Notes under the pieces: model-generated | Database searches by the model: none | The model's input: only the letters and a program-made list of their open reading frames with translations | Told to the model about the DNA's origin: nothing | Translations under genes and position numbers: made by a program | Shown: positions 2,109 to 45,309 of the stretch, piece by piece | How positions within the stretch are numbered: the stretch's first letter is position 1 | Layout: the number at the start of each line of letters is the position of its first letter | Assembly (NCBI RefSeq): GCF_000025225.2 | Contig: NC_013895.2 | Location: forward strand, 1,426,001 to 1,490,000 | DNA: 64,000 nucleotides | DNA from: Mageeibacillus indolicus UPII9-5 | GTDB taxonomy: Bacteria > Bacillota > Clostridia > Saccharofermentanales > Fastidiosipilaceae | Direction of reading: 5' to 3'

Positions 2109-3788
2109 TCAACTGTTCCAACTGCTTACATTGCGCAGGTAAAGCGAGAGCTGCGGCACAATCTGGTTTTTGCGCGATACGATTCCCTTTTGGAAACTAT
2201 GAGATTCACCGGGTAAATTCGGATAGATCTCCGCAATGTACTTAGCACCTTTGCCCACCGCATAAAAAGTTGAGCCATTGTCCCGCGCCGAAGTAAAGAC
2301 CATTAGCCACAAATCGGCTTTGGCGGCCTCCGCTTCCTTAGTCATCTGCGCCAGCAATTCGCTTTCAATCGCCTCAATCGTATTCAGGCGATACATGGTA
2401 AGCTGTGAAATAACCACCTTGCCGCCGGCAATATCAAATTCTTTAACATCTCCGTTCAACATACCATGCAAATCGGCCAATGCGTTCTTGGAACTCTGCG
2501 CAAAAATTTCCTTAGCCAAATCTTCCGTATCCAGACCGGTCAACTCTACCAGCCAAGCCGCCATATTGTGATCAGCTGCCGAGGTGGTTGGGGAACGGAA
2601 ATTCAGCGTATCGGCAATTATGGCCGCTAGCATAAGCGACGCTATTTCCTTATCTGGAACTATGTCCATTTCCCGGTACATTTTGGCAATAATCGTGGCC
2701 GTTGCGCCGACCGGCTCATTACGGAAGCTAATCGGACGATCAGAGGTTATATCGCCGACCCGATGATGATCGACAATTTCAAGGATTTCCGCTTTTTCAA
2801 TATTCGGGACAGCCTGTTTACGCTCATTGTGATCCACCAAAATAAAATGACGCTTGGGTGCCGTCAAAATGCGATAGCGCGAGGTCAGTCCCATAACTCG
2901 GTTTTCTGAATCCATGATCGGATAAGCTCGGAAACGCGATTTCAACATCTGGTCGCGTACGTCGTCAACAAATTCCTCTTCGCTGAAAACTACCAGATTA
3001 TCTTTGTCCATAACCATCGAAACCGGAATTGAATAATACAAATAACGAGACGTATTCATAGCCCCATGGCCTGACAAAATCACGCCGCATTTCTTTTCTC
3101 GTGCCGCCTCAAGAACCATGGGTGCCACCTGATTGGTCCAAACCAAAATAAGAATCGCCGCGCCCTTATTTATCGCTTCAATCTGAGCGTTGGTATCATT
3201 TCCCATGATAACAATACGATCAGCCAGATCATAATTGGCCAAGCGATTGGCAGAAATGGCAGTAATACTTACCTTGCCGTTGTGCCGCGTTTCAGCCGGA
3301 GCGTACAATAGCCGGCCTTCGATAGCCTTGGTTATATTTTCAATCGGCGTGCGGCTCAGCAAATCAATAGCTTTGGCCGTATCTCCCCATAAAATATCTC
3401 CGATTGTGGAGCTGGTAACCAGTCCCAGTAGCTTACGCTTGTCGTCCAAAACCGTAAAAACTTTATGATCATCATCAAAGGCTTCTATAACTTCGCGCAA
3501 AATCGTCGTCGGGGGGATCGCATTCGGGTCGTCAAGTTCCGTCTCATCCATCTGAGCCCGGGCATCTTGAATCAACAACGGTTCCGGTTGGTTGAATTTT
3601 TCCAATAAATGTTTGGTTTCAGGATTGACATCGCCGCAACGGCAGGCAACGGCATTCAGCCCGATTCTATTTTTCAGGTGGGCGTAAGCTATGGCAGACA
3701 AAATACTGTCTGTGTCCGGGTGACGATGTCCGACGATGAAAATGACTCCGCCGCTGACACCGGCCGCAGGGGTTTGATTAGTTAACAT
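2109..3788 (-). CDS. ppaC: Manganese-dependent (family II) inorganic pyrophosphatase with CBS and DRTGG domains
   Basis: DHH-superfamily phosphoesterase predicted to hydrolyse pyrophosphate in the cytoplasm. The N-terminus has the metal-binding HRHPDTDS motif, and further on come DHNE and the family signature VDHHRVGD. The catalytic DHH part is interrupted by two CBS domains flanking a DRTGG-like domain, as in the nucleotide-regulated clostridial subgroup. A DHHA2 domain closes the protein (about 559 aa). In the regulated family, AMP/ADP binding at the CBS pair inhibits and ApnA activates; the same is inferred here. The ATG at 3788 is used because the GGAGGT ribosome site overlaps an upstream in-frame ATG at 3800, which would otherwise seem to be the start. 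Confidence 0.9.
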   Translation of the reverse strand: MLTNQTPAAGVSGGVIFIVGHRHPDTDSILSAIAYAHLKNRIGLNAVACRCGDVNPETKHLLEKFNQPEPLLIQDARAQMDETELDDPNAIPPTTILREVIEAFDDDHKVFTVLDDKRKLLGLVTSSTIGDILWGDTAKAIDLLSRTPIENITKAIEGRLLYAPAETRHNGKVSITAISANRLANYDLADRIVIMGNDTNAQIEAINKGAAILILVWTNQVAPMVLEAAREKKCGVILSGHGAMNTSRYLYYSIPVSMVMDKDNLVVFSEEEFVDDVRDQMLKSRFRAYPIMDSENRVMGLTSRYRILTAPKRHFILVDHNERKQAVPNIEKAEILEIVDHHRVGDITSDRPISFRNEPVGATATIIAKMYREMDIVPDKEIASLMLAAIIADTLNFRSPTTSAADHNMAAWLVELTGLDTEDLAKEIFAQSSKNALADLHGMLNGDVKEFDIAGGKVVISQLTMYRLNTIEAIESELLAQMTKEAEAAKADLWLMVFTSARDNGSTFYAVGKGAKYIAEIYPNLPGESHSFQKGIVSRKNQIVPQLSLYLRNVSSWNS

Positions 3789-3944
3789 CACAACCTCCAT
3801 TGAAATTGAGTAAAATATTTATTTTCATACGCTTGGCACATTCGGTCGATAAATCGAGTTGTAAATTAAGGTGCTAAAGGTGTACGGTGTGTTTAATTTT
3901 AGCATTGTAGGTAATTCGTGTAAATCAGTTAAAAGAATGTCAAG

Positions 3945-5294
3945 CTACGCAAAACGCAATGAAATAAGCATCAAAATAAACTGTGCCTCCGCTGTGGGAA
4001 AGTGAGCTTTGTCAGTTATCATACTTAGCTCATAGTTTTTGCCATTGCTTACAAAATACACACGACGCATGGCACCAGCTTTTTTGTCTTTATCGAGTTG
4101 CAGATCTATAAAGCTGTAAGTTCTACCATTGATTTCTAGCTTCTCGGGCGGAGAAACAATCATTTTGCTCCGACCATTTTTGCCGGCCTCACTTGCCTGC
4201 ATAAAAATCTGATTTAGTTTCGTTTCGATTGCCGCCATATCACTATAGTGTGAATTTTTTTCCAGGGTAATTATTCCGGCCGCCATGTTGCTTAAACCGA
4301 CGATTCTGGTAAGCGTATCCGGCTCTGGTTCGGTAAATAAATTCGGCACCAACTTTATCTCTTTGTTTCGCCCCGCTGGCAAATTTGCTGATGTGTTTTT
4401 TTCTACTTCGGGCGATACTTTTTTATCGTTCTGTCTTTCCTGCTGCGCCGTGGACTTATCTTCTGTGAAAAGTTGCCAATCGCTCATTCTAAAAAAGCTT
4501 GCTTCCCCACTCGGTGATTTTACCAATTGTGCTCCGTAACGTCGCGAACCAAATTCCGCCGTTCCGACCAATTGTAACAGCATCTGTCGTACTTGCCCGT
4601 CCCCATTGATCGCCGGAGTGAAAGCGGAAAAAACCATGACGCCTCCGGACGCGGCATTTGTCACCATTACTGTATGAATACGGCCATCCGAGGTCAACGC
4701 TTGGGCCTGAACTAATGGTCTTTCGCCATACTGCAAGGTTTCCGCCTGCAGATTGCCCTTGTATGTATATTTGTCCGTTTGTTTGAACAATGGTAAGTCA
4801 GCAAAATTTTTCACCAAATCTGTCACATCAAAAATAGGATTATTTTTAATCGCCGCGACATGGGTGATATTGATGGTTGTTCCGTCTTGCAAACGCAAAG
4901 ACAAGCCTTCGGAAGAATCGGCAATCACCTCGGCCTTGCCCGGCAAATTCAGTTTAAGGCCCCAGTTTTTATCGGTATAAACGCCCTCAATCGCCCGTGG
5001 GACATCTTGATTCGCCGCTTTAGCTGCATTGGACGTGGTTGGCGCATCTCCTGCCACATCAGCACGGCCTTGGCGTGCAGTTTCCTCCCCAAACGGATCA
5101 GCCAGATCCGTTGTTTTCGGTCCGGTAGGAAAGCCTGTTTCAGTGCGCCGATCCGTTGGTTGCCGACCGACGTATCTCCCTAAACAAAAAACACATATCA
5201 GTAAAACAACTGCGCCGAAAATCGCAGCACTTTTTTGACATTTTTTACGTTTTTCCGGCGAAATTCTCAACCAAAACGGGCATTTTAAACACAT
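3945..5294 (-). CDS. Membrane-anchored hypothetical protein
   Basis: A protein of about 449 aa with a short basic N-terminus and one hydrophobic segment (AAIFGAVVLLICVFCLG, roughly residues 23-39), then a long hydrophilic part expected outside the cell. Residues 45-95 are low-complexity linker. The remainder contains two stretches resembling small alpha/beta surface domains (around GVYTDKNWGLKLNLPG and near the C-terminus). The N-terminus has three cysteines (CLKC and KKC) before the membrane segment. I recognise no family. The start at 5294 has AGGAG seven bases upstream; an in-frame ATG at 5318 precedes that site. The next gene, divergent, encodes a lipoprotein with a loosely similar C-terminal pattern, so the two may act in the same envelope process. 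Confidence 0.6.
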   Translation of the reverse strand: MCLKCPFWLRISPEKRKKCQKSAAIFGAVVLLICVFCLGRYVGRQPTDRRTETGFPTGPKTTDLADPFGEETARQGRADVAGDAPTTSNAAKAANQDVPRAIEGVYTDKNWGLKLNLPGKAEVIADSSEGLSLRLQDGTTINITHVAAIKNNPIFDVTDLVKNFADLPLFKQTDKYTYKGNLQAETLQYGERPLVQAQALTSDGRIHTVMVTNAASGGVMVFSAFTPAINGDGQVRQMLLQLVGTAEFGSRRYGAQLVKSPSGEASFFRMSDWQLFTEDKSTAQQERQNDKKVSPEVEKNTSANLPAGRNKEIKLVPNLFTEPEPDTLTRIVGLSNMAAGIITLEKNSHYSDMAAIETKLNQIFMQASEAGKNGRSKMIVSPPEKLEINGRTYSFIDLQLDKDKKAGAMRRVYFVSNGKNYELSMITDKAHFPTAEAQFILMLISLRFA

Positions 5295-5342
5295 TTTACT
5301 TCTCCTAAGAAATGACATTACATAAGCTGTTATTTTTGGTGT

Positions 5343-5372
5343 ATAATACCATCATTGGCACTCCGAGGGCAA
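5343..5372 (-). promoter_or_regulatory. Predicted promoter of the membrane-anchored hypothetical gene
   Basis: On the minus strand TTGCCC (5367-5372) and TATTAT (5343-5348) are separated by 18 bp, about 50 bp upstream of the start at 5294. Confidence 0.35.
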
Positions 5373-5497
5373 TTATAAGCTGACGCCTTTTGTTGCCCGA
5401 TTTGTCAGTGTTTTAAGTATAACGATAATATTGGGCTTGTGCTGCTTTATTTGGCAACGCTGACGTATATATTTTGAAAACATTTAAGGAGAAAACA

Positions 5498-6172
5498 ATG
5501 AAAAAAATCTGTAAAAAATTAACATCTACTTTACTGACATTAGGGATCATTTCTACTGTTACTTTCACTGCCGCCTGTGGCAAAACGGAAAGCACCGCCA
5601 ACACTGCCGCAACGGCTGTGGCAACCACAGATGAAGTTGCCGCCACAACCCCGTCTTCAACGGAAAAAAATCCCGATTTTACTTTGACTGCTGGTGAACT
5701 TACGATGAACTTGTCCGGAGATTCATGGGTCAAAGCCCCTGACAATCCGAACGCGGCCTACTATCGCATCAACAACGACATCAATGTTGCTTATGCCGAA
5801 TTCAATGCCCAAAAGTTCAAAACTGAGGGCTTTATGATGAAGGAATATGACAGTGATCCCAACCAATTCTACAAACAGGTTGAATCGTCCATTTTCCCGG
5901 CCAATCCGCCTACCGACAAAAAGACAGCGTATTTTTCCAAGAACGGCGAGCCCGAAAACATCACCATTCAGGGGCATCCGGCTCACGTTTATCCGATTAT
6001 CCTGCACAACCCCGGTCAGGATCTAACAGCTAATGTACTGGTTTTCATAAACGGTTCTCACATTCACACAACAACGATTGTTGCCATGCCCGGTAATGAA
6101 AAGTCCATCGCCGACTACAAGATTGCTGTGGTCAATCTGCTGAATGCCGCTACGGTTGCTGCAGCTAAATAA
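5498..6172 (+). CDS. Putative exported lipoprotein of unknown function
   Basis: A 224-aa protein with a typical lipoprotein signal: basic MKKICKK, a hydrophobic stretch, and a lipobox ending TAAC at about residue 26, so it should be lipid-anchored outside the membrane. A threonine/alanine-rich linker follows, then a globular domain of about 170 residues that I cannot assign to a named family. The start is the ATG at 5498, preceded by AAGGAG; the upstream TTG at 5474 lies before the ribosome site. It is monocistronic, with a clear terminator about 90 bp downstream. Confidence 0.65.
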   Translation: MKKICKKLTSTLLTLGIISTVTFTAACGKTESTANTAATAVATTDEVAATTPSSTEKNPDFTLTAGELTMNLSGDSWVKAPDNPNAAYYRINNDINVAYAEFNAQKFKTEGFMMKEYDSDPNQFYKQVESSIFPANPPTDKKTAYFSKNGEPENITIQGHPAHVYPIILHNPGQDLTANVLVFINGSHIHTTTIVAMPGNEKSIADYKIAVVNLLNAATVAAAK

Positions 6173-33040: not shown

Positions 33041-34405
33041 TTACAGCAACACCATCGCGATTAGATGAGCCGCCACGCCGGCAGTAAGTCCGCCTATCGT
33101 ATGGCTGAAAATCGCCTTGCCGGTAAGTTCTTTGCAATTTAGAGCATCACACATGGCAATGTGCGTCGAAATGTATCCGCTCCAGCACATGCAAATGGCC
33201 GAAAACACCGCTATGTCGTTGGCGGTAATAGCCCCACGTTGAACCAACTTGGCCACGACCCCGATTGCGGCTCCAGTTGAGCCCAGGGCGGTTATCGGAA
33301 CGGCAATTGCCTCCGGTGCGGTAAATCCGAATAATGGTTTTATAATAAAAGATATTTTTTCGCCGAGCCACGGCAAAACGGGGATGCCTTGATTCGCCTC
33401 TCCGGTGTAAATTCCGTTCGGCCCCGCTCCGTTGGTCAGCATGGTTACCAAGGTGCAAATAATCACTACACCCGGGACAATGCAAAGCCCCATTTCCACT
33501 CCTACTTTGCCACCTTCCAGCATCGCTTGGATGAATCTTGAGCCGACACCCCCCGGCCGTACCTGCCGCATGTTATCAGGTATTTTCTCGCCGCCGTGTA
33601 ATTCACATTTGGCTTCCGTGCCGTATATTTTACGAGTAAAAACAAGCATAATCCGGACTGAAACAACACTGCCAACAATCGCTCCCACCAAGCCGATCAT
33701 CGAGGCCGGCAGAGCTTTTTTCACATCCATGCCCATCATTGTTGTCACTGTAATCAAGCCCATACCGAAAGCCGTGCCGAGATTGGTCAATGCCGGTAAT
33801 TGGTATTTTTTGAAATATGTCAGGAAGTTGTCATCTGCGGCTAACGTTAATATTGCAGGGTTATCGGATAAAAAGCAGTTCAACATCCCGAGAGAGGCCG
33901 CCCCCGGCAAATCATATATGGGGCTCATAATCTTTGATACGATTCGGTTAACCATCGCAATAATTCCGAATTCGGAGAACAGTCCAGACAGTGCTCCGGC
34001 TAGGACGGCAATCGCCATTATATAAAAGCAGACGTTCATCAATAGATCAAAGGCCGTGTTCATCATAGTTTTCAGCATGTTGACCCCGCCCATTTTTGCC
34101 GCTATCGCCCCGAAAACCGCGATGAAGCAGGCTAAAAAGATAAAATTTTCTGGCGTAATATCTTTTTTCAGCAGCCGTTCCGTCTTGACTGGCGGCGGTG
34201 TAATAGTCACATTTTCAGCTGTTGCGGCCCTAACTGCAGCTCCATCGCTCGCCAGGCTTTTGTCTTGTTTGGCCGGTGCAGTCGTGTCGTCTATCTTGCC
34301 TTGCACAGCTTGCCCGGCCAATTCAGCCGCCTCGGCTGAAACAGCTTGCCCGGCCAATTCAGCTGCCTCGACCTTTAGTTTCCGTTCATTATCCACTTTC
34401 ATCAT
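33041..34405 (-). CDS. YjiH-type membrane protein with nucleoside-recognition (GATE) domains
   Basis: A polytopic membrane protein (about 455 aa) resembling the YjiH family: paired GATE/nucleoside-recognition regions (AIAVLAGALSGLFSEFG and FLSDNPAILTLAADD) and about nine to ten membrane segments. A hydrophilic N-terminus of about 80 residues contains a duplicated AAELAGQAV repeat. The substrate is not known. The start is uncertain: GGGGG abuts ATG ATG at 34405/34402, and a GTG at 34396 has better spacing. The longer frame to 34507 crosses the upstream terminator and is rejected. Last gene of the OTC/carbamate-kinase strand series. Confidence 0.65.
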   Translation of the reverse strand: MMKVDNERKLKVEAAELAGQAVSAEAAELAGQAVQGKIDDTTAPAKQDKSLASDGAAVRAATAENVTITPPPVKTERLLKKDITPENFIFLACFIAVFGAIAAKMGGVNMLKTMMNTAFDLLMNVCFYIMAIAVLAGALSGLFSEFGIIAMVNRIVSKIMSPIYDLPGAASLGMLNCFLSDNPAILTLAADDNFLTYFKKYQLPALTNLGTAFGMGLITVTTMMGMDVKKALPASMIGLVGAIVGSVVSVRIMLVFTRKIYGTEAKCELHGGEKIPDNMRQVRPGGVGSRFIQAMLEGGKVGVEMGLCIVPGVVIICTLVTMLTNGAGPNGIYTGEANQGIPVLPWLGEKISFIIKPLFGFTAPEAIAVPITALGSTGAAIGVVAKLVQRGAITANDIAVFSAICMCWSGYISTHIAMCDALNCKELTGKAIFSHTIGGLTAGVAAHLIAMVLL

Positions 34406-34458
34406 CCCCCGCAATTTCGTACATATAGTTTCATGCATATAGTTTATAACTTTTTGGC

Positions 34459-34494
34459 AAAAAAAGGGGGACAAGGCAAAAAATACCTCGTCCC
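34459..34494 (-). terminator. Terminator of the AGCS symporter gene
   Basis: On the minus strand GGGACGAGG pairs with CCTTGTCCC (one mismatch) and is followed by CCTTTTTTT. It separates the symporter from the YjiH-like gene. Confidence 0.75.
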
Positions 34495-34515
34495 TCCGGT
34501 CAGTCAAATCTATAC

Positions 34516-35886
34516 TTACTTGCGCAATCTCTCGTAGAACTTAGGATTGCTGAAAAATTCCTTGGTCAGCTTACGAACTTCGCCACTCAAATATACAACA
34601 CCGATCATATTCGGGATGATAACCAAAGCCAAGCTCAAGTCAAGGATGGAGCCTGCTTTTTCAAAAGTAATAACCAAGGCCGCAAGAATCATCAAGCTGG
34701 CAATCAGCCGGACGACCTTACCAATTTTGGTACCGAAAAGATATTCACCCTGTTTTTCAGCATAGAAGACAATGACGATGATAGTTGAAAGAACGAACAG
34801 GAACAAGCTTATCGCAATAATCACGCCGCCCAAAGTGCCGAAAACTTGTGTAAAAGCGGAATAAACGGCAACGCTTGACTTAACATCAGGATTCTTCCAT
34901 ACCCCGGTCGTCAACACTACCAAAGCCGACATGGTGCAAACGATAACTGTATCACCGGTGACCTCAAACACACCCCAGAAACCTTGGCGACAAGGATGAT
35001 CAACCACGGCAGCGGCATGGCCGTAAGGCGCAGAACCCATACCGGCTTCATTGGAGTACACACCGCGGGCGATACCACTTTTAACTGCAGCCATAAATGT
35101 CACGCCAACCGCTCCACCGGCAATTGCTTTAGGATTGAAGGCACCGACAAAGATATCTCTGATCGCGCCGGGGATTGCGGACGCGTGCAGGACAATGACA
35201 ATCAAAGCAAAAATAACGTAGATAACCGCCATAATCGGTACCATAAGCTCGGTTACCTGCCCGATACGTTTAACACCACCGTAAACGACCAAGGCGACAA
35301 CGACGAAAATTAGACCGACAGCCAGCCAAGTCGGGAAGCCAAGTTCACGCAACGGATTGACCGCGGACAAAGTCTGCACGGTAATTGACGGCAGAATCTC
35401 AATCATAAAGAAGAAGGATACACAGAAACCCAGTACTTTGCCGATTGGGCCGCCCAAACCTTTTTTCAAATAGTAAGCGGGACCGCCGATGTATTCGCCG
35501 TCAACGTTCTTCTCACGATACTTCATGCCGAGAACGATTTCTGTATACTTCGTGCTCATACCGATGAAAGCTGCAAGCCACATCCAGAAGACGGCCCCGG
35601 GTCCAGCAGTAAAGATAATCGACGGGACAACAACAATGTTGGCTGCACCGATTGATGAGGCCAAAGCAGTGCAAGCCGCTTGGAACGGGGTTACAGTACC
35701 TTCGCCTTCATGCTTTTTGACAAAAATCTTGCCGAATGTCTGGCTCATCATGTAGCCAAAGTATCTAATCTGTACCAACCCCAGTCTGAAAGCAACAAAC
35801 AAACCGCCGCCGACGATCAAAATCAGCAAAGGGTAGCTCCACAACCAATCGGATACCGTTTTGACGATATTCATAATAAAATCCAT
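34516..35886 (-). CDS. Sodium:alanine (AGCS) amino-acid symporter
   Basis: A 456-aa alanine/glycine:cation symporter family protein with about 11 membrane segments. Diagnostic regions are GGGLFVAFRLGLVQIRYFGY, the sodium-site stretch ALASSIGAANIVVVPS, the SYNEAGMGSAP-like motif (here VYSNEAGMGSAPYGHAA) and VFEVTGDTVIVCTMSALVVLTTG. It imports a small neutral amino acid with Na+ or exports one. Its position after OTC and carbamate kinase suggests movement of an amino acid linked to that pathway, possibly product alanine or proline, but this is inference. Confidence 0.85.
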   Translation of the reverse strand: MDFIMNIVKTVSDWLWSYPLLILIVGGGLFVAFRLGLVQIRYFGYMMSQTFGKIFVKKHEGEGTVTPFQAACTALASSIGAANIVVVPSIIFTAGPGAVFWMWLAAFIGMSTKYTEIVLGMKYREKNVDGEYIGGPAYYLKKGLGGPIGKVLGFCVSFFFMIEILPSITVQTLSAVNPLRELGFPTWLAVGLIFVVVALVVYGGVKRIGQVTELMVPIMAVIYVIFALIVIVLHASAIPGAIRDIFVGAFNPKAIAGGAVGVTFMAAVKSGIARGVYSNEAGMGSAPYGHAAAVVDHPCRQGFWGVFEVTGDTVIVCTMSALVVLTTGVWKNPDVKSSVAVYSAFTQVFGTLGGVIIAISLFLFVLSTIIVIVFYAEKQGEYLFGTKIGKVVRLIASLMILAALVITFEKAGSILDLSLALVIIPNMIGVVYLSGEVRKLTKEFFSNPKFYERLRK

Positions 35887-35994: not shown

Positions 35995-36927
35995 TCAGCT
36001 GTGAATCAGGGTTCCTGTTTTTCCCTCCAGAGCTTCCCGGGCATTAAATAAGCCAGTAATAATGGCCGAACGTCCCGGCTTGGCTTTGACAAACGCCAAA
36101 CAAGCCTGTACTTTAGGCAACATGCTGCCCTTGGCGAATTGCCCTTCGGCGATATATTTTTCGGCCTCGGCAATTGACAAGCTGTCCAAATCTTTTTGCG
36201 CCGGAGTGTTGAAGTTGATCGCCACTTTTTCTACGGCGGTCAAGATAATCAGTTGATCAGCGTCCAATTCATCCGCCAGCTTAGCCGAAGAGTTGTCTTT
36301 GTCGATAACCGCATCTACGCCTTGATACCCGTTCGGAGTAGCGACAACCGGTATTCCGCCGCCGCCGACAGCGATAACCATGATATTATTTTCAACCATA
36401 GTGCGCACGGTATCGAGTTCAACAATTTTTTTCGGTAACGGGGAAGGCACTACCTGACGATAACCGCGCCCCGCGTCCTCGACAAAGGTCAACCCGTTTG
36501 CCGCGGCCATTTTTTCCGCTTCTTCTTTAGTGTAAAAATTGCCGACCGGCTTGCTTGGATTTGCAAAAGCCTTATCATCCGGATCAACTTCAACCTGTGT
36601 AATTACAGTTGCAACTGCTTTAGTTTTGCCCAAACGTCGGTATTCGTTTTGAATAGCCTGTTGCAGGTGATAGCCGATATAGCCTTGACTCATGGCACCG
36701 CATTCTTTCAGAGCCACATAAGGCACTTTATCTTCATGCTTACACCCACTGTCCATGGCCAACTTGATCATTCCTACCTGCGGTCCATTACCGTGTGCCA
36801 AAATAAGCTCATTGCCTGATTCAGCCAAATTAACAATGGCCACAGCTGCTTTGGCAACCGCCTCCAACTGAGCTTCCGGGGTATGCCCCAGAGCATTTCC
36901 GCCTAGGGCGGCAACAATCTTTCCCAT
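35995..36927 (-). CDS. arcC: Carbamate kinase
   Basis: A 310-aa amino-acid-kinase-fold enzyme that transfers phosphate from carbamoyl phosphate to ADP, giving ATP, ammonia and CO2. Clear features are the N-terminal VAALGGNALG, LAHGNGPQVG, VVPSPLP-type region and AVGGGGIPV. With the upstream ornithine carbamoyltransferase it forms the ATP-yielding end of citrulline breakdown. GGAGG precedes the ATG. A partial terminator lies between it and the OTC gene, so expression relative to OTC is probably reduced. Confidence 0.92.
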   Translation of the reverse strand: MGKIVAALGGNALGHTPEAQLEAVAKAAVAIVNLAESGNELILAHGNGPQVGMIKLAMDSGCKHEDKVPYVALKECGAMSQGYIGYHLQQAIQNEYRRLGKTKAVATVITQVEVDPDDKAFANPSKPVGNFYTKEEAEKMAAANGLTFVEDAGRGYRQVVPSPLPKKIVELDTVRTMVENNIMVIAVGGGGIPVVATPNGYQGVDAVIDKDNSSAKLADELDADQLIILTAVEKVAINFNTPAQKDLDSLSIAEAEKYIAEGQFAKGSMLPKVQACLAFVKAKPGRSAIITGLFNAREALEGKTGTLIHS

Positions 36928-36988: not shown

Positions 36989-37981
36989 TTATCTCAAGGT
37001 AGCATAAACAACTGCTTTGATTGTGTGCATTCTGTTTTCTGCTTCCTCAAACACGACGGACTTGTCCGATTCAAACACTTCATCGGTAACTTCCATCTCC
37101 GGCAAGCCAAATTTCTCGAAAATTTGCTCACCGATCGTGGTTTTGCGATCGTGGAAGGACGGCAGGCAGTGCATGAAAATCGCTTCAGGATCTGCGTTGT
37201 CCATAACCGCTTTATTTACTTGGTATGGTTTCAAAACCTTGATTCGGTGCGCCCAGATCTCGTCGGGTTCGCCCATAGATACCCAAATATCAGTATAAAT
37301 AACGTTCGCGCCGGCCGTAGCTTTCTTCACGTCGGACTCGAGGGTTACAGTGCAGCCCTGGCGAGCGGCTATTTCACGGGCTTTAACTACGAGGTCCTCC
37401 GCCGGGAAAAGTTCAGCTGGAGCGCAGGCTGTGTAGTTCACGCCCATCATGGCGCAGGCTATCATTAAGGAGTTACCCATATTGTTTCTGGCATCGCCCA
37501 TAAAGACGAAGTTCAGGCCTTTCAAATAGCCAAAATGTTCTTCAATAGTCAGCAAATCCGCCAACATTTGGGTCGGATGGAATTGGTCGGTCAGGCCATT
37601 CCAAACCGGAACACCGGCGTAATTGGACAGTTCAGTTACCAAATCTTGGCTGTAGCCACGATATTCAATACCGTCATACATTCTGCCGAGTACCCGTGCG
37701 GTGTCAGCGATGCTTTCTTTCTTGCCCATTTGGGATGAGCCCGGATCAAGGTAGGTAACGCCCATGCCCAGATCCATTCCGGCAACCTCAAAAGAGCAGC
37801 GGGTGCGAGTAGAAGTTTTCTCGAAAAGCAGAACGATATTCTTCCCTTCCAACCAGCGATGCGGCACACCGGCACGTTTCATATCTTTAAAATTTTTGGA
37901 TAAATCAAGCAGATAGCGTACATCTGAGGGTTCAAAGTCCAGCAGTTTTAAATATGATCTTCCGCTTAAATTTTTAGCCAT
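36989..37981 (-). CDS. arcB: Ornithine carbamoyltransferase, probably catabolic
   Basis: A 330-aa enzyme that interconverts ornithine plus carbamoyl phosphate and citrulline plus phosphate. The carbamoyl-phosphate loop STRTRCSFE, the ornithine-binding region FMGDARNNMGNS, and the HCLPSFHD motif are intact. The catabolic direction is inferred from the following carbamate kinase and the absence of arginine-biosynthesis genes. The ATG at 37981 has GGAGG upstream; an in-frame start at 38011 lies before it. Arginine deiminase is not present nearby, so citrulline or another carbamoyl donor may be the real input. Confidence 0.9.
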   Translation of the reverse strand: MAKNLSGRSYLKLLDFEPSDVRYLLDLSKNFKDMKRAGVPHRWLEGKNIVLLFEKTSTRTRCSFEVAGMDLGMGVTYLDPGSSQMGKKESIADTARVLGRMYDGIEYRGYSQDLVTELSNYAGVPVWNGLTDQFHPTQMLADLLTIEEHFGYLKGLNFVFMGDARNNMGNSLMIACAMMGVNYTACAPAELFPAEDLVVKAREIAARQGCTVTLESDVKKATAGANVIYTDIWVSMGEPDEIWAHRIKVLKPYQVNKAVMDNADPEAIFMHCLPSFHDRKTTIGEQIFEKFGLPEMEVTDEVFESDKSVVFEEAENRMHTIKAVVYATLR

Positions 37982-38157
37982 AATAATTACCTCCAAAGTT
38001 ATGCGTTGCAAATATATTTCCCTGACAAACAGAGTTATTATGTTTTGATTATAGACTTAAAAAAAGCACTGCCGAGACATTTCCAACCTTTTAGTTTGTT
38101 TCGAAAATCAAATTGTTGTTTTTTTGTCAATAAACTTGCTATTTTGGCCGTTTAAAT

Positions 38158-38216: not shown

Positions 38217-38291
38217 TACCACAATAGTGGCGATAATTTTGTCTTGTCAGATAGATATGCGATGCCACTTCAGCTTAGAAAAGGTGAAAAC

Positions 38292-39887
38292 TTGAGAATT
38301 ATACCTGATAAATTTCCGGCTGAAACCGGAACAGGAATCCACCGTGCAGGAACTACAGGATCCGCCGGCACAGAAACTACAGGAGCTGCCGGCACAGGAA
38401 CTACAGGAGCCACCAGCACAGAAACTACAGGAGCTGCCGGCAAGCAATCGGCAGAAGTAGAGCGCACACAAGCTGCGCGAACCGGCCGTGTGCGCAAGCA
38501 AGTTGCCAGGGTCGCCCGTACAGAAGCAGTCATACCCGGAATTATTGAAGGGAAACTCAAAATGCGCAAACAAAACGCAATGTTGGCGCAAATAGCTGCC
38601 TTCGATTATCAAATTGACCGCGAACCTACCGAACCGCTGTTGCACCAAACGGGACGAATGCTTTATATCACCGACGGTCACGGCAAAATTGTCATTCAAG
38701 ATAAGGTCTATCAGCTTTTCCCTGGCCTCATAGTTGTCCTGATGCCTTGGCAAGTTTCACAGATCATTGAAGTTCGAGAGCCGTTACGTTATATACTTTT
38801 GGCTTTCAACTATACGTATATCAACTATTTAATAAAAAACAATTTTGAATCCGGCGACAATTACGAGCGTTTGCGCGACATCCTATACAGCGTAAGTACG
38901 CTATATCCTCGCGAATCAACCCGGCAAGAATTTTTTAGCCTCTTCAGCAGCTTTGCTTTCTTGCTCGACGCCGGGGATGATCTTTATCGGCCGGACAGCA
39001 AAAGCCACGATATTTCCGTTTCTATAAGGACCGGATTGCAGGCGGCTTTCAGTGCCGGCAAAAGTAATGAATGGTCACACTGGGCGGCTGTTCGCCTGAC
39101 CTCGCGACTGATGGAACTCTTGGCAATGTATGCGTTAGAAGTAAAAGCAACGACCGGCGAAGGAAACATCGTTCCGGCTGACAAAGTACCCGACTCCTAC
39201 AACCCTACCCGCTTTTTTCAGTATCTTTACCACAATTTGGATACCTACCCGACTTTAAAATCAGCCGCTGAGCAATTCATGATGAGTGAATCCACCTTGA
39301 ACCGTTTTGTGCGTCGGACAACCGGTGAAAATTACACCGATTTGGTAAAAGATATGCGGATAATGAAAATTATTGATTTTTTACTTTATTCCGACTTTTC
39401 GTTGCAAGAAATCGCCGGTTTTCTCGGCTACAAAGACGCCTCATATATTTCTCGTCTTATTCACGAAAAAACGGGGCTACATGCGCAGGAAATACGCGAA
39501 CAACCACATCGGGCAAATTTGCTCAACCGTGACCGCGGTTTGGCCAAGGCAAGGGCCGTCTGTAAATACATCGGCGAAAACTATCAGAGCGATATTTCAG
39601 CTATCCAAGTAGCGGAAACGTTTGACATTTCCACCGGGGCACTTACCGTGATGCTCAAAGAAACTTTCGACAAAACGTTTAACGAACTGCTGAATGAATT
39701 CAGGTTATCCAAGGCCTGTGTTTTACTGTTGACCACTGACATGGAAATCACCGAAATCGCTTTTCATGTCGGCTACAATTCCATCAAAACTTTTGTCCGC
39801 AATTTCAAAGCCAAGTATACTTACACCCCAAGTAGTTTTCGTACAACGATACATTTGCAAGATGTTGACCTCCAAGACGCAGATTAA
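38292..39887 (+). CDS. Transcriptional regulator with two AraC-type DNA-binding modules
   Basis: A protein of about 531 aa. It begins with a Thr/Gly/Ala repeat linker (about residues 18-50), then a probable cupin-like sensor (about 95-185), a helical middle, and two separate AraC/XylS-type helix-turn-helix modules: one around residues 309-404 (TLKSAAEQFMMSESTLNRFV, then QEIAGFLGYKDASYISRL) and one around 417-520 (IQVAETFDISTGALTVMLKE, then TEIAFHVGYNSIKTFVRNF). Ordinary AraC proteins have one such module. The TTG at 38292 follows AAAAGGTGA; an ATG at 38262 and a TTG at 38244 are alternatives without ribosome sites. It likely controls the divergent OTC genes and the downstream pair. Confidence 0.7.
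   Translation: MRIIPDKFPAETGTGIHRAGTTGSAGTETTGAAGTGTTGATSTETTGAAGKQSAEVERTQAARTGRVRKQVARVARTEAVIPGIIEGKLKMRKQNAMLAQIAAFDYQIDREPTEPLLHQTGRMLYITDGHGKIVIQDKVYQLFPGLIVVLMPWQVSQIIEVREPLRYILLAFNYTYINYLIKNNFESGDNYERLRDILYSVSTLYPRESTRQEFFSLFSSFAFLLDAGDDLYRPDSKSHDISVSIRTGLQAAFSAGKSNEWSHWAAVRLTSRLMELLAMYALEVKATTGEGNIVPADKVPDSYNPTRFFQYLYHNLDTYPTLKSAAEQFMMSESTLNRFVRRTTGENYTDLVKDMRIMKIIDFLLYSDFSLQEIAGFLGYKDASYISRLIHEKTGLHAQEIREQPHRANLLNRDRGLAKARAVCKYIGENYQSDISAIQVAETFDISTGALTVMLKETFDKTFNELLNEFRLSKACVLLLTTDMEITEIAFHVGYNSIKTFVRNFKAKYTYTPSSFRTTIHLQDVDLQDAD
38335..38450 (+). repeat. Coding 24-bp tandem repeat in the regulator gene
   Basis: Repeats of the form ACAGGAACTACAGGAGCTGC encode TTG(A/S)(A/T)GTE-type units. 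The frame is preserved by the unit length. Confidence 0.6.
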
Positions 39888-39949: not shown

Positions 39950-41080
39950 ATGCAATTCAAAGGCTTTCAATTTACCCCTCCCGATTTTGCTTCAGCCCCG
40001 TATGATACGGCCGCCGAAGTCACCACTGCCTCTTGCGAAATAGACGGGGTCGCACCGGATCAGTTTTATTTAACCTGTCATCTGCCTACTTTCTACAAAA
40101 TCGGCAATGAATGGCAATTACCGATACATAATTCACTTAACTGCGCAGCGGTCATAGCCAACGGGCAGGTAAAAATTACTGAACTGCGCGACTTAAAAGC
40201 AGGTGATGCAGTTGTAATCCGCTCTGAATCCGGATCTGAATCTGGATCCAGCTCTGATCTTACGGCTCAGGGCATTGCCGTCGAAAAAAATTGTTTCGGC
40301 CCTGATGTATACCTCAACAACGGCAACGCGGTTGAAAGTTCCTCAACCGCCAATTACGAATTTCTTTACCGGCTGATGGAACACGAACGTCGCAATGGCG
40401 GCCACATAGTCTGGGTGCTCGGCCCTTCGGTTGTTTTTGACTATAACACCCGCATCGCCCTAACTGAGCTTGCCGAAGCCGGATATATCAATGCCTTGCT
40501 GGCCGGCAACGCCTTGGCAACTCACGATCTTGAAGGCGGCTGGCTCGGCACTGCCTTGGGACAGGATATATATACACAGGTAACCGTGCCGTTGGGACAT
40601 TACAACCATCTTGATCTTCTGAATGCCGTCCGCACCGTAGGATCGACCAAGGAGTTCATCGCGCAGGGCAAGGTAAAAGACGGCTTGATTAAAACGCTCA
40701 TGCAGCTCAATATTCCTATCGTCTTAGCCGGTTCAATTCGTGATGACGGTCCTTTGCCGGAAGTTCATCACTGTGTTACCGACAGCTTGACGGCGATGAA
40801 AGCAGAAACGGATAAAGCCACTTTAATCATTGCTTTAGCCACCATGCTCCATTCAACCGCCACCGCCAACTTGGCATCAACTTATCACGTTGATGCGGAC
40901 GGCAGAGTCAAACCTGTCTACATGTACGCGGTAGACGTTACCGAAAACGTTGTCAACAAAATATCAGCTGCTCGCGGCCATTTTGCCACTAGGACAATGA
41001 TAACCAACGTGCAAGATTTCACCGCTAAGGTTAACCGAGCATTGATTAAACCTGAGTTCAAACAGGAGTCACTAATATGA
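39950..41080 (+). CDS. LOR/SDH-domain (TIGR00300) protein, ornithine-cyclodeaminase type, copy A
   Basis: A 376-aa protein matching the LOR/SDH family, known from the C-terminal part of cyanobacterial AgrE/ArgZ and from archaeal ornithine cyclodeaminases, which turn ornithine into proline and ammonia with bound NAD. Matching segments are HIVWVLGPSVV, INALLAGNALATHDLE, GTALGQD, GSTKEFIAQGKVKDG, AGSIRDDGPLPEV (intact) and ATMLHSTATANL. The glycine-rich HTGGG loop after the GPxVV strand of characterised members reads DYNTR. Residues 85-100 hold a short Ser/Gly insertion. AAGGAG precedes the ATG. It overlaps copy B by four bases. Confidence 0.75.
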   Translation: MQFKGFQFTPPDFASAPYDTAAEVTTASCEIDGVAPDQFYLTCHLPTFYKIGNEWQLPIHNSLNCAAVIANGQVKITELRDLKAGDAVVIRSESGSESGSSSDLTAQGIAVEKNCFGPDVYLNNGNAVESSSTANYEFLYRLMEHERRNGGHIVWVLGPSVVFDYNTRIALTELAEAGYINALLAGNALATHDLEGGWLGTALGQDIYTQVTVPLGHYNHLDLLNAVRTVGSTKEFIAQGKVKDGLIKTLMQLNIPIVLAGSIRDDGPLPEVHHCVTDSLTAMKAETDKATLIIALATMLHSTATANLASTYHVDADGRVKPVYMYAVDVTENVVNKISAARGHFATRTMITNVQDFTAKVNRALIKPEFKQESLI

Positions 41081-42168
41081 ATTTTAAAATACCAGCTTTC
41101 ACGCCACCCGATTTTGCCAACGATTTTCCGACTAATGCGCCTGACGTCACTTTGGAAGCCGTAAAAGAGGATGGCTTATCCCCCCTCAATTATCACGCCT
41201 TATCTATCTTTCCTGAATATTTCAAGATCAATGGCAAATGGATTTTGGCCGTACAATCTCGCATGGATACAGTCTGCGTCGCCAATGACACGCCGGGCGA
41301 AGAATCCGTCAGTATTGTCGAATTCCGCAACCTGAAAAAAGGCGATAAAGTAGTTATTGGGCGAACTGAGGACGGTTCAGAAGGCATCTACGTCTATACA
41401 AAAGGTTTCAAAGCTGCCGGGGGTAACGACGATACTTTCGCGTTTCGGGCCGGGCGATCGCGTGAAACCGCTTTCAGTATGGATTATGACAATCTGTCTG
41501 ATCTACTGAAATATGAGAAATCCCATAACGGTTATGTAACTTGGGTTCTCGGTTCGGCAATCTCGCTTGACCGCTCTTCCCGTGCTGCCTTGGAACAGCT
41601 TGTACGCGGCGGCTTTGTACAGGCGATCTTCTGCGGCACCGCCACGGCCGCTTTTGACCTTGAGTGCGGTATTTACGATTCGTCTTGGGGGCAAAAAGAA
41701 TTCTATGCCGAAGGGAATACCAATGACAATTATTACAAAACAATCAATTTGGCACGCAAGTACGGGTCTTTGCAGGCCTTGACGGAAAGCGGCATGGTCA
41801 AAGATGGTTTCGTCAAAGCATGTATTGAATGCGGCGTTGATCTCGTCATAGCTGGGACAATTCGGGATCGATTCACCCTGCCCGGTACATATGACAATGT
41901 GTATGAGGCGCAAAACGCCATGCGTAAGCATACTCGTAAAACCACTTCCATTATCATGGTCTCGGCCGTTCTTTTTACCATTGCTACTGGCAATATGACC
42001 CCTTCATATAACGAATTTGACGGAGTTATTCGCCCAATCTACATGTACACTGTCGACATCCAGGAATTTACGGTCAACAAGCTCTCTGACCGAGGTACGT
42101 TGACCGCTGTTTCCATCGTAACTAACGGGCAAGACTTCATGACCAATATTGGACAGGCTTTGAGCTGA
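41077..42168 (+). CDS. LOR/SDH-domain (TIGR00300) protein, ornithine-cyclodeaminase type, copy B
   Basis: A 363-aa paralogue of copy A that starts within its stop codon (ATGA overlap). The fold signatures remain (TWVLGSAISL, GSLQALTESGMVKDG, IATGNMTP, DIQEFTVNKLSDRG), but several conserved positions differ: AGSIRDDGPLP reads AGTIRDRFTLP, and GGNAIAVHD reads CGTATAAFDLE. On the other hand GNMTP is closer to characterised enzymes than in copy A. Tight coupling and complementary losses suggest an obligate heteromer. The last 165 bp overlap the antisense 3' end of the surface-protein gene. Confidence 0.75.
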   Translation: MNFKIPAFTPPDFANDFPTNAPDVTLEAVKEDGLSPLNYHALSIFPEYFKINGKWILAVQSRMDTVCVANDTPGEESVSIVEFRNLKKGDKVVIGRTEDGSEGIYVYTKGFKAAGGNDDTFAFRAGRSRETAFSMDYDNLSDLLKYEKSHNGYVTWVLGSAISLDRSSRAALEQLVRGGFVQAIFCGTATAAFDLECGIYDSSWGQKEFYAEGNTNDNYYKTINLARKYGSLQALTESGMVKDGFVKACIECGVDLVIAGTIRDRFTLPGTYDNVYEAQNAMRKHTRKTTSIIMVSAVLFTIATGNMTPSYNEFDGVIRPIYMYTVDIQEFTVNKLSDRGTLTAVSIVTNGQDFMTNIGQALS

Positions 42169-45100
42169 GAGTTCGCTGTCTCCGGCTGCACCAGTATCCG
42201 GCACTTCATCTTTGTCGCTTAACTCACTTTCTTCGCCGTTCTCGCTCAGCTCCAAAGCTTTATTGTCAGCTTCACCCTCTGAAGCGGCTGCCGAGTTTTC
42301 CTTGAATGCTGGATATCCGTTTAACGAATCGACCATTTTGGCCAAAATCTCTCCCTCCGTTTTCAAATATTTGCGCACAGATTCAGGTAATTTCTTAAAC
42401 TCCGTAAAAGCTTGTAAAATTGCCGCTTTGTTGGCCGCTGTAAGTTTCCATGGATCGAGCTTGAATAAAGCTCGGTATTTTTCTTTGAAATCTTTGGCGG
42501 CCTGTTTATCGTCCTTGGCTCGTTTAACCGCATCCAGCCAAAACTCTTTGGCAACCTGTAATTGGCTAATTTCCGGCTGTAGATATTTTTTTAAAGCCTG
42601 GGAAAATTTTGCCTGGGCGGCCAAGGCTTCTTGTAGTTTCTTTAGGTCGTCAACCGAATAGTTTTCCGGCTCTTTGTGCAAAATATCCGCGTAATTTTCC
42701 CTGAATCGCTCAGCCTGCTCTTGTTCTTCCTTGGTCAATTTGCCTTGGCGATGTTTGCGCCATGCTTCTATCTGTTGTTCAAGCAGTTTTCCTTCTTTTT
42801 CGGTCTCGGTTCTGGCCTCGACGGGTAAGCGCAGCCAATCTTGCCAAGCATCTAAAATCGCTTCACCATCTTGTTCCGTTATTTCGTTCACCTTTTTTGC
42901 CAGTATTTTGGCGTGTTTTTGTCGCCATTTCGGGGCGGCTGTATTGTCCTTATTCTCTTTTTCTTTTTTCGGTTCTTCTCCGGTTGAACGGCGTTTCCTG
43001 CTTTTCGCCGCTTCTTCCTCCGCCGCCCGGCGTTTCGCCGCTTCTTCCTCTGCCGCCCGGCTTTTCGCCGCTTCTTCCTCTGTCGCCCGGCGTTTCGCCG
43101 CCTCTTCCTCTGTTGCCCGGCGTTTCGCCGCTTTTTCCTCTGCCGCCCGGCGTTTCGCCGCTTCTTCCTCTGCCGCCCGGCGTTTCGCCGCCTCTTCCTC
43201 TGTTGCCCGGCGTTTCGCCGCTTCTTCCTCTGCCGCCCGGCGTTTCGCCGCTTCTTCCTCTGTCGCCCGGCGTTTCGCCGCCTCTTCCTCTGCCGCCCGG
43301 CGTTTCGCCGCCTCTTCCTCTGCCGCCCGGCGTTTCGCCGCCTCTTCCTCTGCCGCCCGGCGTTTCGCCGCTTCTTCCTCTACCACCCGGCGTTTCGCCA
43401 GCTGTTCTTGCCAAAACTTGGCTATTTCATCTATTGCGTGCAATTCCGGCAACAGCATTTCCTGCGCTCTCGCAGACAATTTTTTTGCCTCTTCTTTGGC
43501 ACGCACCAAAGTTTGTAAATCAGCAACCGTCAAATCGCCCGGCTGTTTGCTCAACACCGGTTGGAACTTTTTGCGCCAGGCCGCAGCCTCGGCCGCTGCA
43601 GCTTGCTCCTTGGCTTTAGCGGCGGCCTCTTTTTTCGCCGCTTCTTGTCGCTCCGTGGCCTTGGCCAATTTATCAGTCAAAACACTTTTAACTTTAGCTT
43701 TAGCCGTTTGAATTGGTTGCGACAACGCGGCAAATGCACGCAAAGCATCCCGCAACCCTTCGACATCATTATCACCTTGGTCTGTCGTCCAATAGTGTTG
43801 GTAACGTCGCGAAAACTCCGTCCAATTTCTGAAGCCTTCTACCAATTTATCCAAACGCGCCCGCAAAGCTTTTTGTTGAGGATGAGCTGACGGCACGGCA
43901 TTTACGGCAGCTGTAGCCGTGGTGAGCAGGCTCTGATTATCCGGCTGTTTTTCCGCTGCCTCCAACGCCTCTTTTGCTTTCTCATAGGCTGCGCGAAATT
44001 TTTCCTCCTGCTCTTGCATTTCTATTTGTCTTTTCAGCTCCTCCAAACGTTTTTTGGCAGTCTCAAGCTCTTTTTTCGCCTCATTGTTCGCCGCTATTTC
44101 TGCTAAAGCCGCGTCAATTTCTGCCTTGTCTTTACGTTGAGGCGTGTAGCCGTCAGCGAAAAACTTTTGATACAGCCGTTTGAAGTCATCGGCGATAATT
44201 TTATTGGCGTCACCGCTTTTTATGTAATAAACATCATAAGTAAAAGATGTCCGGTTATAGTTAATGTAACGCGGGCCACGAATGTAGATATTTCTATCTG
44301 TTTGCATCAATGTGTTATGAAAATTATGAGCTTTCACGAAACGTTCTTTGACAATATCATCATTATCCAAAAGTGCGCTGCCTTCATACTTATCATATTC
44401 TTCATCAGCATAGCTGCCCTGATTTTTTGCCGGGGACAGGCGATACCAATTGTCGAAAGACAACCCGTAAATTTTGGCAATACCACTGTCATCGCTGATC
44501 GCTGAGGTTTTTTCCAAATCCTTGTATGCGTTGTATTCACCGGCGTAAAAATAAGTACCGTAATATGATGACTTGACTAAACGATTTATTTTGCAGTCCA
44601 CTTGATTAAGTAAAAGCATATCTTCTCGTTCGCGGTACGGGGCAAACAAGCTACCCAAATCTTTGGTAAATGAAATAGGGTTTATGTCCGGGTTTTGTCG
44701 CCGATTACTCGGCTTTTTGATTGAAAATACTTTCCACTCCTGATTGGCAACTGGTGGAATGACATGTAGGATAAAGTTTAATTTTGCTTGTTTAACAGCA
44801 TTATTAACCCCTTCGGTATTGCGGGGCAAGGCAAGTTCATTGTTGCCGGGTTTTACGGAGGGCATGCTGCCGGGCGACTTGTAGCCAAGCGGTATTTCCT
44901 GAATTTCCCATCTGTATCTATACTTTTCGGGAGCCCAAACGACTTCCGCCTCTTTGCCGTTATCCGGCCTAAACTCGGCAATAGTTTCCCATTTATCCGC
45001 GCCGTTCGCGCTGCGCAGCAGGTTGATTACCCCATCAGTGATTTCGCGGCCGTCGTTTGCATCGTTAACGCGCAAGCTAATCGTCGTTTTTTTCACCGGG

Positions 45101-45309
45101 GGTTGGGGCTGATCGGTCTTGCCGGCAGGGGACTCTGCTGCTGCCGCTGCCGGTTTGGCTTCGCCGTCCCGTTGTTCAGGTGCGTTGCGGTGATATGCTC
45201 CGGAGTCGGTGTTTTTACTGAGTCCGATTATTTCATAGCTTCCGCTGCCGCTTGTCAAAAGTAACGTCGCCGCCAACAGGCTGCCGATATTTCTGAATAT
45301 TTTTTTCAT
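42004..45309 (-). CDS. Large surface protein with long coiled coil and truncated sorting signal
   Basis: An 1101-aa exported protein: signal peptide MKKIFRNIGSLLAATLLLTSG, a Cna-B-like beta domain (about residues 73-155, ISLRVNDANDGREITDG), a middle region without assignment, a long Ala/Lys/Glu coiled coil, about 12 copies of AAKRRAAEEE (about 640-770), further helical segments, then an acidic stretch and VPDTGAAGD, which looks like a sortase motif. The hydrophobic segment and basic tail that should follow are missing. From about 42172 the frame continues through the reverse strand of the neighbouring LOR/SDH gene for 54 codons. So the protein is probably secreted but no longer wall-anchored. 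Confidence 0.65.
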   Translation of the reverse strand: MKKIFRNIGSLLAATLLLTSGSGSYEIIGLSKNTDSGAYHRNAPEQRDGEAKPAAAAAESPAGKTDQPQPPVKKTTISLRVNDANDGREITDGVINLLRSANGADKWETIAEFRPDNGKEAEVVWAPEKYRYRWEIQEIPLGYKSPGSMPSVKPGNNELALPRNTEGVNNAVKQAKLNFILHVIPPVANQEWKVFSIKKPSNRRQNPDINPISFTKDLGSLFAPYREREDMLLLNQVDCKINRLVKSSYYGTYFYAGEYNAYKDLEKTSAISDDSGIAKIYGLSFDNWYRLSPAKNQGSYADEEYDKYEGSALLDNDDIVKERFVKAHNFHNTLMQTDRNIYIRGPRYINYNRTSFTYDVYYIKSGDANKIIADDFKRLYQKFFADGYTPQRKDKAEIDAALAEIAANNEAKKELETAKKRLEELKRQIEMQEQEEKFRAAYEKAKEALEAAEKQPDNQSLLTTATAAVNAVPSAHPQQKALRARLDKLVEGFRNWTEFSRRYQHYWTTDQGDNDVEGLRDALRAFAALSQPIQTAKAKVKSVLTDKLAKATERQEAAKKEAAAKAKEQAAAAEAAAWRKKFQPVLSKQPGDLTVADLQTLVRAKEEAKKLSARAQEMLLPELHAIDEIAKFWQEQLAKRRVVEEEAAKRRAAEEEAAKRRAAEEEAAKRRAAEEEAAKRRATEEEAAKRRAAEEEAAKRRATEEEAAKRRAAEEEAAKRRAAEEKAAKRRATEEEAAKRRATEEEAAKSRAAEEEAAKRRAAEEEAAKSRKRRSTGEEPKKEKENKDNTAAPKWRQKHAKILAKKVNEITEQDGEAILDAWQDWLRLPVEARTETEKEGKLLEQQIEAWRKHRQGKLTKEEQEQAERFRENYADILHKEPENYSVDDLKKLQEALAAQAKFSQALKKYLQPEISQLQVAKEFWLDAVKRAKDDKQAAKDFKEKYRALFKLDPWKLTAANKAAILQAFTEFKKLPESVRKYLKTEGEILAKMVDSLNGYPAFKENSAAASEGEADNKALELSENGEESELSDKDEVPDTGAAGDSELSAQSLSNIGHEVLPVSYDGNSGQRTSVRELVDRKFLDVDSVHVDWANNSVKFVI
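43012..43399. repeat. Coding minisatellite of 30-bp units in the surface-protein gene
   Basis: About 13 near-identical 30-bp units (plus strand CGCCGCTTCTTCCTCTGCCG then CCCGGCGTTT) encode AAKRR(A/T)(A/T)EEE. Variants differ at one or two bases (Ala/Thr, Arg/Ser, one Glu to Lys), which indicates recent expansion. All other frames also stay open. Confidence 0.9.

Follow-up and report, generated by a model that had tools for sequence, protein, structure and literature searches.

Adjacent ornithine cyclodeaminase paralogues with mirror-image losses in Mageeibacillus indolicus: a probable obligate heteromer with one composite active site

Do two adjacent, overlapping genes of the ornithine cyclodeaminase (OCD) superfamily in the vaginal anaerobe Mageeibacillus indolicus UPII9-5 encode two separate enzymes, an enzyme and its regulator, or two halves of one enzyme? 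The genes, here called A and B, lie in the window analysed, i.e., a 64,000-nucleotide stretch (positions 1,426,001 to 1,490,000 of contig NC_013895.2) of a genome made up of one contig of 1,809,746 bases. An earlier sequence-only reading of the window had inferred that the two copies have split functions in one complex. The genes and their motifs were observed at the following window coordinates.

39950..41080, + strand: gene A, an OCD-superfamily subunit of 376 aa, nucleotide-pocket residue set kept
40505..40534, + strand: A motif GNALATHDLE, found in A and in the single-copy enzymes; most B proteins lack N187, A188 and H192
40595..40609, + strand: A motif GHYNH, present in A, gone from B
40733..40759, + strand: A motif SIRDDGPLP, present in A; B has TIRDRxxLP
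41077..42168, + strand: gene B, an OCD-superfamily subunit of 363 aa, complementary residue set kept
41257..41268, + strand: B motif SRMD, present in B, gone from A
41437..41466, + strand: B motif FAFRAGRSRE, present in B; FxFR and R129 are gone from A
41977..42003, + strand: B motif TIATGNMTP, present in B; its G, T and P are gone from A
42061..42096, + strand: B motif QEFTVNKLSDRG, with F, L, D and G present in B and gone from A

Both open reading frames are full length, and the four-base overlap that had been reported for them was confirmed (ATGA, 41077-41080). The two proteins are 34% identical over their whole length. They had been assigned to TIGR00300, a label that could not be kept: A and B score 193.7 and 180.5 bits, respectively, against a cut-off of 410.8. 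The nearest NCBIfam model for both is NF052526 (ODC_var), described as a "putative nickel-pincer-nucleotide (NPN)-dependent OCD", with 443.3 bits for B and 398.5 bits for A (curated cut-off 440). Both proteins also match PF21570, the ArgZ-like C-terminal Rossmann domain (161.9 bits for A and 152.2 bits for B; cut-off 27), and their only convincing PDB matches are Methanococcus maripaludis 3c2q and cyanobacterial ArgZ/AgrE. The clostridial single-copy NF052526 enzymes resemble A and B in length, domain order and fold family, and A and B are nested within them; each of these enzymes, however, is the product of one gene and carries all invariant positions in one chain, whereas A and B hold half each. 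The TIGR00300 archaeal OCD (M. maripaludis MMP1218, 3c2q) shares superfamily and fold with A and B but is a single protein with an HTGG loop, and A and B fall far below its cut-off. MMP_1218 is reported to form proline from ornithine (PMC10809761). Cyanobacterial ArgZ/AgrE (6juy, 6lrf-6lrh) has the C-terminal OCD-type domain in common with A and B but, unlike them, is fused to an arginine dihydrolase domain and carries both residue sets on one chain. That N-terminal dihydrolase domain is absent from A and B, whose matches cover only the C-terminal part of ArgZ/AgrE. At the downstream end of the pair, an antisense gene (42004-45309, - strand), whose 1101-aa product has long repeats of the AAKRRAAEE type, overlaps the 3' end of B with its own 3' end by about 165 bases.

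Gene A keeps GNAxxTHDLE, GHYNH, SIRDDGPLP and LH, and is without SRMD, FxFR, GNMTP and NKLxDRG. Thus the motif description given earlier for A held for the retained SIRDDGPLP and the missing GNMTP, and that given for B, i.e., GNMTP kept with TIRDRFTLP and AFDLE in place of conserved blocks, proved correct. A lost HTGGG loop had also been taken as a mark of A, and this was rejected: the nearest single-copy family lacks HTGGG throughout, with the consensus GPAxxFDxDSR at that position, and HTGG is confined to TIGR00300 proper.

The losses in A and B are mirror images of each other. The reference was a set of 109 columns, each with an invariance of 95% or more across 69 single-copy relatives. Both proteins kept 43 of these columns; 37 were relaxed in A only, 28 in B only, and a single column in both, where 10.1 would be expected if the losses were independent (Fisher p = 8e-6). 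No invariant position was lost outright from both A and B. A second test used a non-redundant set and the 57 columns conserved also in distant TIGR00300-like relatives. Here 22 columns were kept in both, 18 were relaxed in A only, 17 in B only and none in both (p = 4e-4), and every position lost in A was kept in B. Neighbouring columns are not independent, and the Fisher p values are indicative only. A has lost SRMD, FxFR, R128, Q280 and R284, along with G306/T309/P310 of GNMTP and F333/L338/D341/G343 of EFxVNKLxDRG; M63, D64, F121, Q280, G306, P310, L338, D341 and G343 are the superfamily-wide residues gone from it. B has lost A188/H192 of GNAxxTHD, L203, GHYxH and DDGP. A protein A with all conserved active-site residues had been named beforehand as a finding that would refute the split-function inference; a large set of these residues is missing. 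The observed pattern is the signature expected if a two-chain site had stayed under selection and its twin site had not. The loss of the cofactor-pocket residues from B might also mean that B is a regulatory pseudoenzyme, which stabilises or allosterically switches a catalytic, perhaps weakly catalytic, A and uses its kept residues to bind ornithine or proline as an effector. Activation of an impaired partner by a paralogue was indeed the first reading of trypanosome deoxyhypusine synthase (PMC3663545). We nevertheless consider a regulatory B improbable: A lacks superfamily-wide residues all of which B keeps, and pure regulation predicts no such complement.

A search of 392 genomes across the class Clostridia, to which the window's genome belongs, returned single-copy relatives near 600 bits, distant single copies at 250-280 bits, and adjacent pairs. 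Two adjacent copies were found in 39 of the 130 genomes of one family (that of genome G422). In whole genomes, the window included, the A orthologue lay directly upstream of the B orthologue at 32 of 32 pair loci, and a contig scan with an A profile gave 30 A loci, B being immediately downstream in all 30, plus 50 single-copy loci. These 32-locus and 30-locus sets overlap; merged, they give 44 non-redundant A/B pairs. Neither a lone A nor a lone B was found among the loci read. The other result named beforehand as refuting, a pair not found together elsewhere, was therefore not obtained, as the two genes were together at every pair locus read. The pair occurs, among others, in Anaerococcus, Peptoniphilus, Neofamilia and psychrophilic Clostridium species. 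Its A-to-B order was constant, and the genes usually overlap or have a gap of no more than about 15 bases, the gap being 34-86 bases in Clostridium.

The tree places the pair's single origin among the single-copy clostridial enzymes: A is monophyletic (support 1.0), B is monophyletic (0.998), both are nested among those enzymes beside Clostridium single copies, and the Clostridium pairs sit at the base of both clades. Given this monophyly and placement, the pairs can be explained if a gene of the single-copy family was duplicated once and the two copies were then passed on together, in part by transfer. The mirror-tree correlation of A with B is high (r 0.88), and co-inheritance alone would also yield such a value. 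Because the Clostridium pairs already carry the core of both losses, with H301 and N187 still present in B, the A/B split is old, with later losses added on top. The single-copy enzymes near the duplication point, those of C. ganghwense (L099, 6001-7092) and C. aestuarii (L119, 6001-7083), are useful references for the pre-split state. Both members of the pair have been conserved over the long term (mean identity across the 44 pairs, 55% for A and 62% for B), as might be expected of two separate homomeric enzymes that had taken up new, different substrates or half-reactions and were co-transcribed for one pathway. Each such enzyme would have to function with half of the residues invariant in the superfamily missing; at all loci read, A and B occur only together, and their losses do not overlap. 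We regard two separate enzymes as very improbable.

The complementary losses and the strict pairing instead support the inference of split functions in one complex, which is well supported by these independent lines of sequence evidence, and they sharpen it to one composite active site; the complex and its catalysis remain inferred. We consider it likely that A and B form an obligate heteromeric OCD with one composite, most likely NPN-dependent site, where complex, site location, cofactor, substrate and reaction are all inferences. The ancestor would have been a single-copy homo-oligomer whose active sites lay where its subunits meet. Following a single duplication, A would have retained the face with the cofactor pocket (GNAxxTHDLE, GHYNH, DDGPLP) and given up the opposite one; B would have retained that opposite face (SRMD, FxFR, GNMTP, NKLxDRG) and lost the pocket. 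Since A and B have each lost the face that the other kept, of the two sites in each A:B dimer one would be composite and complete and the other doubly dead. That the retained sets meet across an interface is inferred, with no coordinates behind it.

An AlphaFold2 run was made on an artificial A-B read-through across the stop codon, for a locus (L087) whose two genes share a reading frame and are joined by about 35 residues of natural linker. The A-B chain had a mean pLDDT of 79.9 and a pTM of 0.80. The control chain, in which B continued into the downstream carbamate kinase ArcC (L075), had a pTM of 0.49 at similar alignment depth. The alignment for the A-B chain was shallow (a 5+5 row set, 9 rows per half), and the control came from a different locus with a short linker. 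The mean confidence of B was 80 next to A versus 68 next to the kinase, and several regions gained beside A, the surroundings of GNMTP and NKLSDRG among them. The modelling thus supports a defined A:B arrangement as a prediction, without locating the active site. Foldseek returned 3c2q (TM 0.85), AgrE and ArgZ, and after these deoxyhypusine synthases, including that of T. brucei (6dft). Neither A nor B matched the Pfam DS model (PF01916) up to E = 1, and comparison of OCD and deoxyhypusine synthase profiles gave a weak signal (E 0.003 in one case). Mapping of OCD residues onto deoxyhypusine synthase with HMMER and hhalign was dropped, the sequence similarity being too weak, and the comparison therefore rests on fold.

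Deoxyhypusine synthase active sites are built from residues of both subunits (PMC7226451); in the Pyrococcus horikoshii enzyme, one monomer gives the NAD contacts and the other gives a binding loop and a histidine (PMC7432094). The trypanosomatid enzyme is a heterodimer of paralogues in which one site is functional and the other dead (PMC7581365), and co-expression of the trypanosome paralogues raises activity 3000-fold (PMC3663545). Like the proposed A:B dimer, DHSc:DHSp of trypanosomatids and Entamoeba (6dft) joins two impaired paralogues with one live and one dead site, in a related Rossmann fold; it is, however, eukaryotic and differs in reaction and family. The parallel is a working analogy plus a fold match, and not family membership. 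With that proviso, we judge somewhat better than even the chance that the pair is an obligate heteromer of complementary half-dead paralogues that builds one NPN site, a bacterial counterpart of the trypanosome deoxyhypusine synthase.

The neighbourhood of the pair bears on its substrate. The following genes were observed close to A and B in the window.

36989..38011, - strand: ornithine carbamoyltransferase (arcB type); the same family is found near Peptoniphilaceae A/B pairs
35995..36927, - strand: carbamate kinase, arcC
34516..35886, - strand: AgcS-type amino-acid carrier, conserved close to the pair
33041..34507, - strand: membrane protein of the CD0519/CD1768 family, a conserved neighbour of the pair at 8 loci
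38244..39887, + strand: AraC-type regulator just upstream of A, with relatives at 4 other pair loci

Genes of these families also flank many of the Peptoniphilaceae pairs. Arginine deiminase was present in 10 of the 12 pair genomes tested, that of the window included, and in G540 it is encoded directly behind B. This neighbourhood fits a route from arginine through citrulline to ornithine and carbamoyl phosphate, with ATP made by ArcC, and from ornithine to proline; substrate and reaction are inferred from operon context only. Ornithine from the arginine deiminase, ornithine carbamoyltransferase and carbamate kinase route would be converted by the A-B pair to proline and ammonia. The CD0519/CD1768-family protein may transport arginine, ornithine, citrulline or proline. 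A gene for a ClpB-like AAA+ protein of about 840 aa (approximately 3470-5995) lies directly upstream of A at many Peptoniphilaceae pairs (L074-L076, L078-L080, L082, L083 and L089), and its role is unexplained.

Which cofactor would the pair carry? The nickel-pincer nucleotide, supplied by LarB, LarC and LarE, appears most likely. NCBIfam now describes TIGR00300 and the OCD superfamily as NPN dependent. At an Anaerococcus locus (L080), the genes for the ClpB-like protein, A, B, larE, larB, larC1 and larC2 follow one another on the same strand. Each of the four Lar proteins scores above its cut-off, and LarA was not found in that Anaerococcus genome (G446). Within the one family, LarC was observed in 32 of the 39 pair genomes versus 24 of the 91 others, and 15 genomes have the pair and LarC without LarA. 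In genus g110, all 16 pair genomes have LarC, and the sole other LarC-positive genome of the genus has LarA. LarC was also present in 13 of 13 further genomes, 11 with the pair (7 of these with the Clostridium pair) and 2 with the single-copy enzyme, a few of them counted already. The co-occurrence counts carry no phylogeny correction. The genome of the window has LarB, LarC and LarE along with three LarA homologues, and is therefore neutral on NPN use; we rejected its Lar genes as proof that A and B use NPN. LarA racemases resemble the proposed A-B enzyme in using NPN made by LarB, LarC and LarE, but are single proteins of an unrelated family.

The possibility remained that the heteromer is correct and its cofactor is NAD rather than NPN. 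The AgrE structure contains NAD+ (PDB 6lrg title), and LarC was absent, with no LarB match, from seven pair genomes (G317, G392, G472, G473 and G474 of g196; G486 and G487 of g246). These genomes are mostly about 99% complete, and the pocket motifs are present in the A proteins that they encode; G486 has a LarA homologue without LarC. They may hold NPN-independent pairs or a divergent pathway, and so NPN is perhaps not needed by every pair. Set against NAD are the placement of larE-larB-larC1-larC2 directly behind A-B in Anaerococcus, the 15 LarA-less genomes with pair and LarC, and the NCBIfam description of the superfamily. We therefore hold NAD to be unlikely as the cofactor, and retain the NPN-dependent heteromer as the preferred reading.

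We found no description of a two-gene form of OCD in the literature searched, a limited library, and to our knowledge no heteromeric NPN enzyme has been known before. If the proposal is true, labelling both genes plain ornithine cyclodeaminase misleads, and each protein assayed alone would show nothing. The pair would be a clean bacterial case of two paralogues that each miss half of the active site they share, and a comparison series is available in the single-copy relatives, the less-diverged Clostridium pairs and the more diverged pairs. Of the genomes that carry larBCE, about 15% are without larA, and what used NPN in these was unknown (PMC11796402). The A-B pair would be a non-LarA nickel-pincer user in human-associated anaerobes, and would explain some of the cofactor makers that lack LarA.
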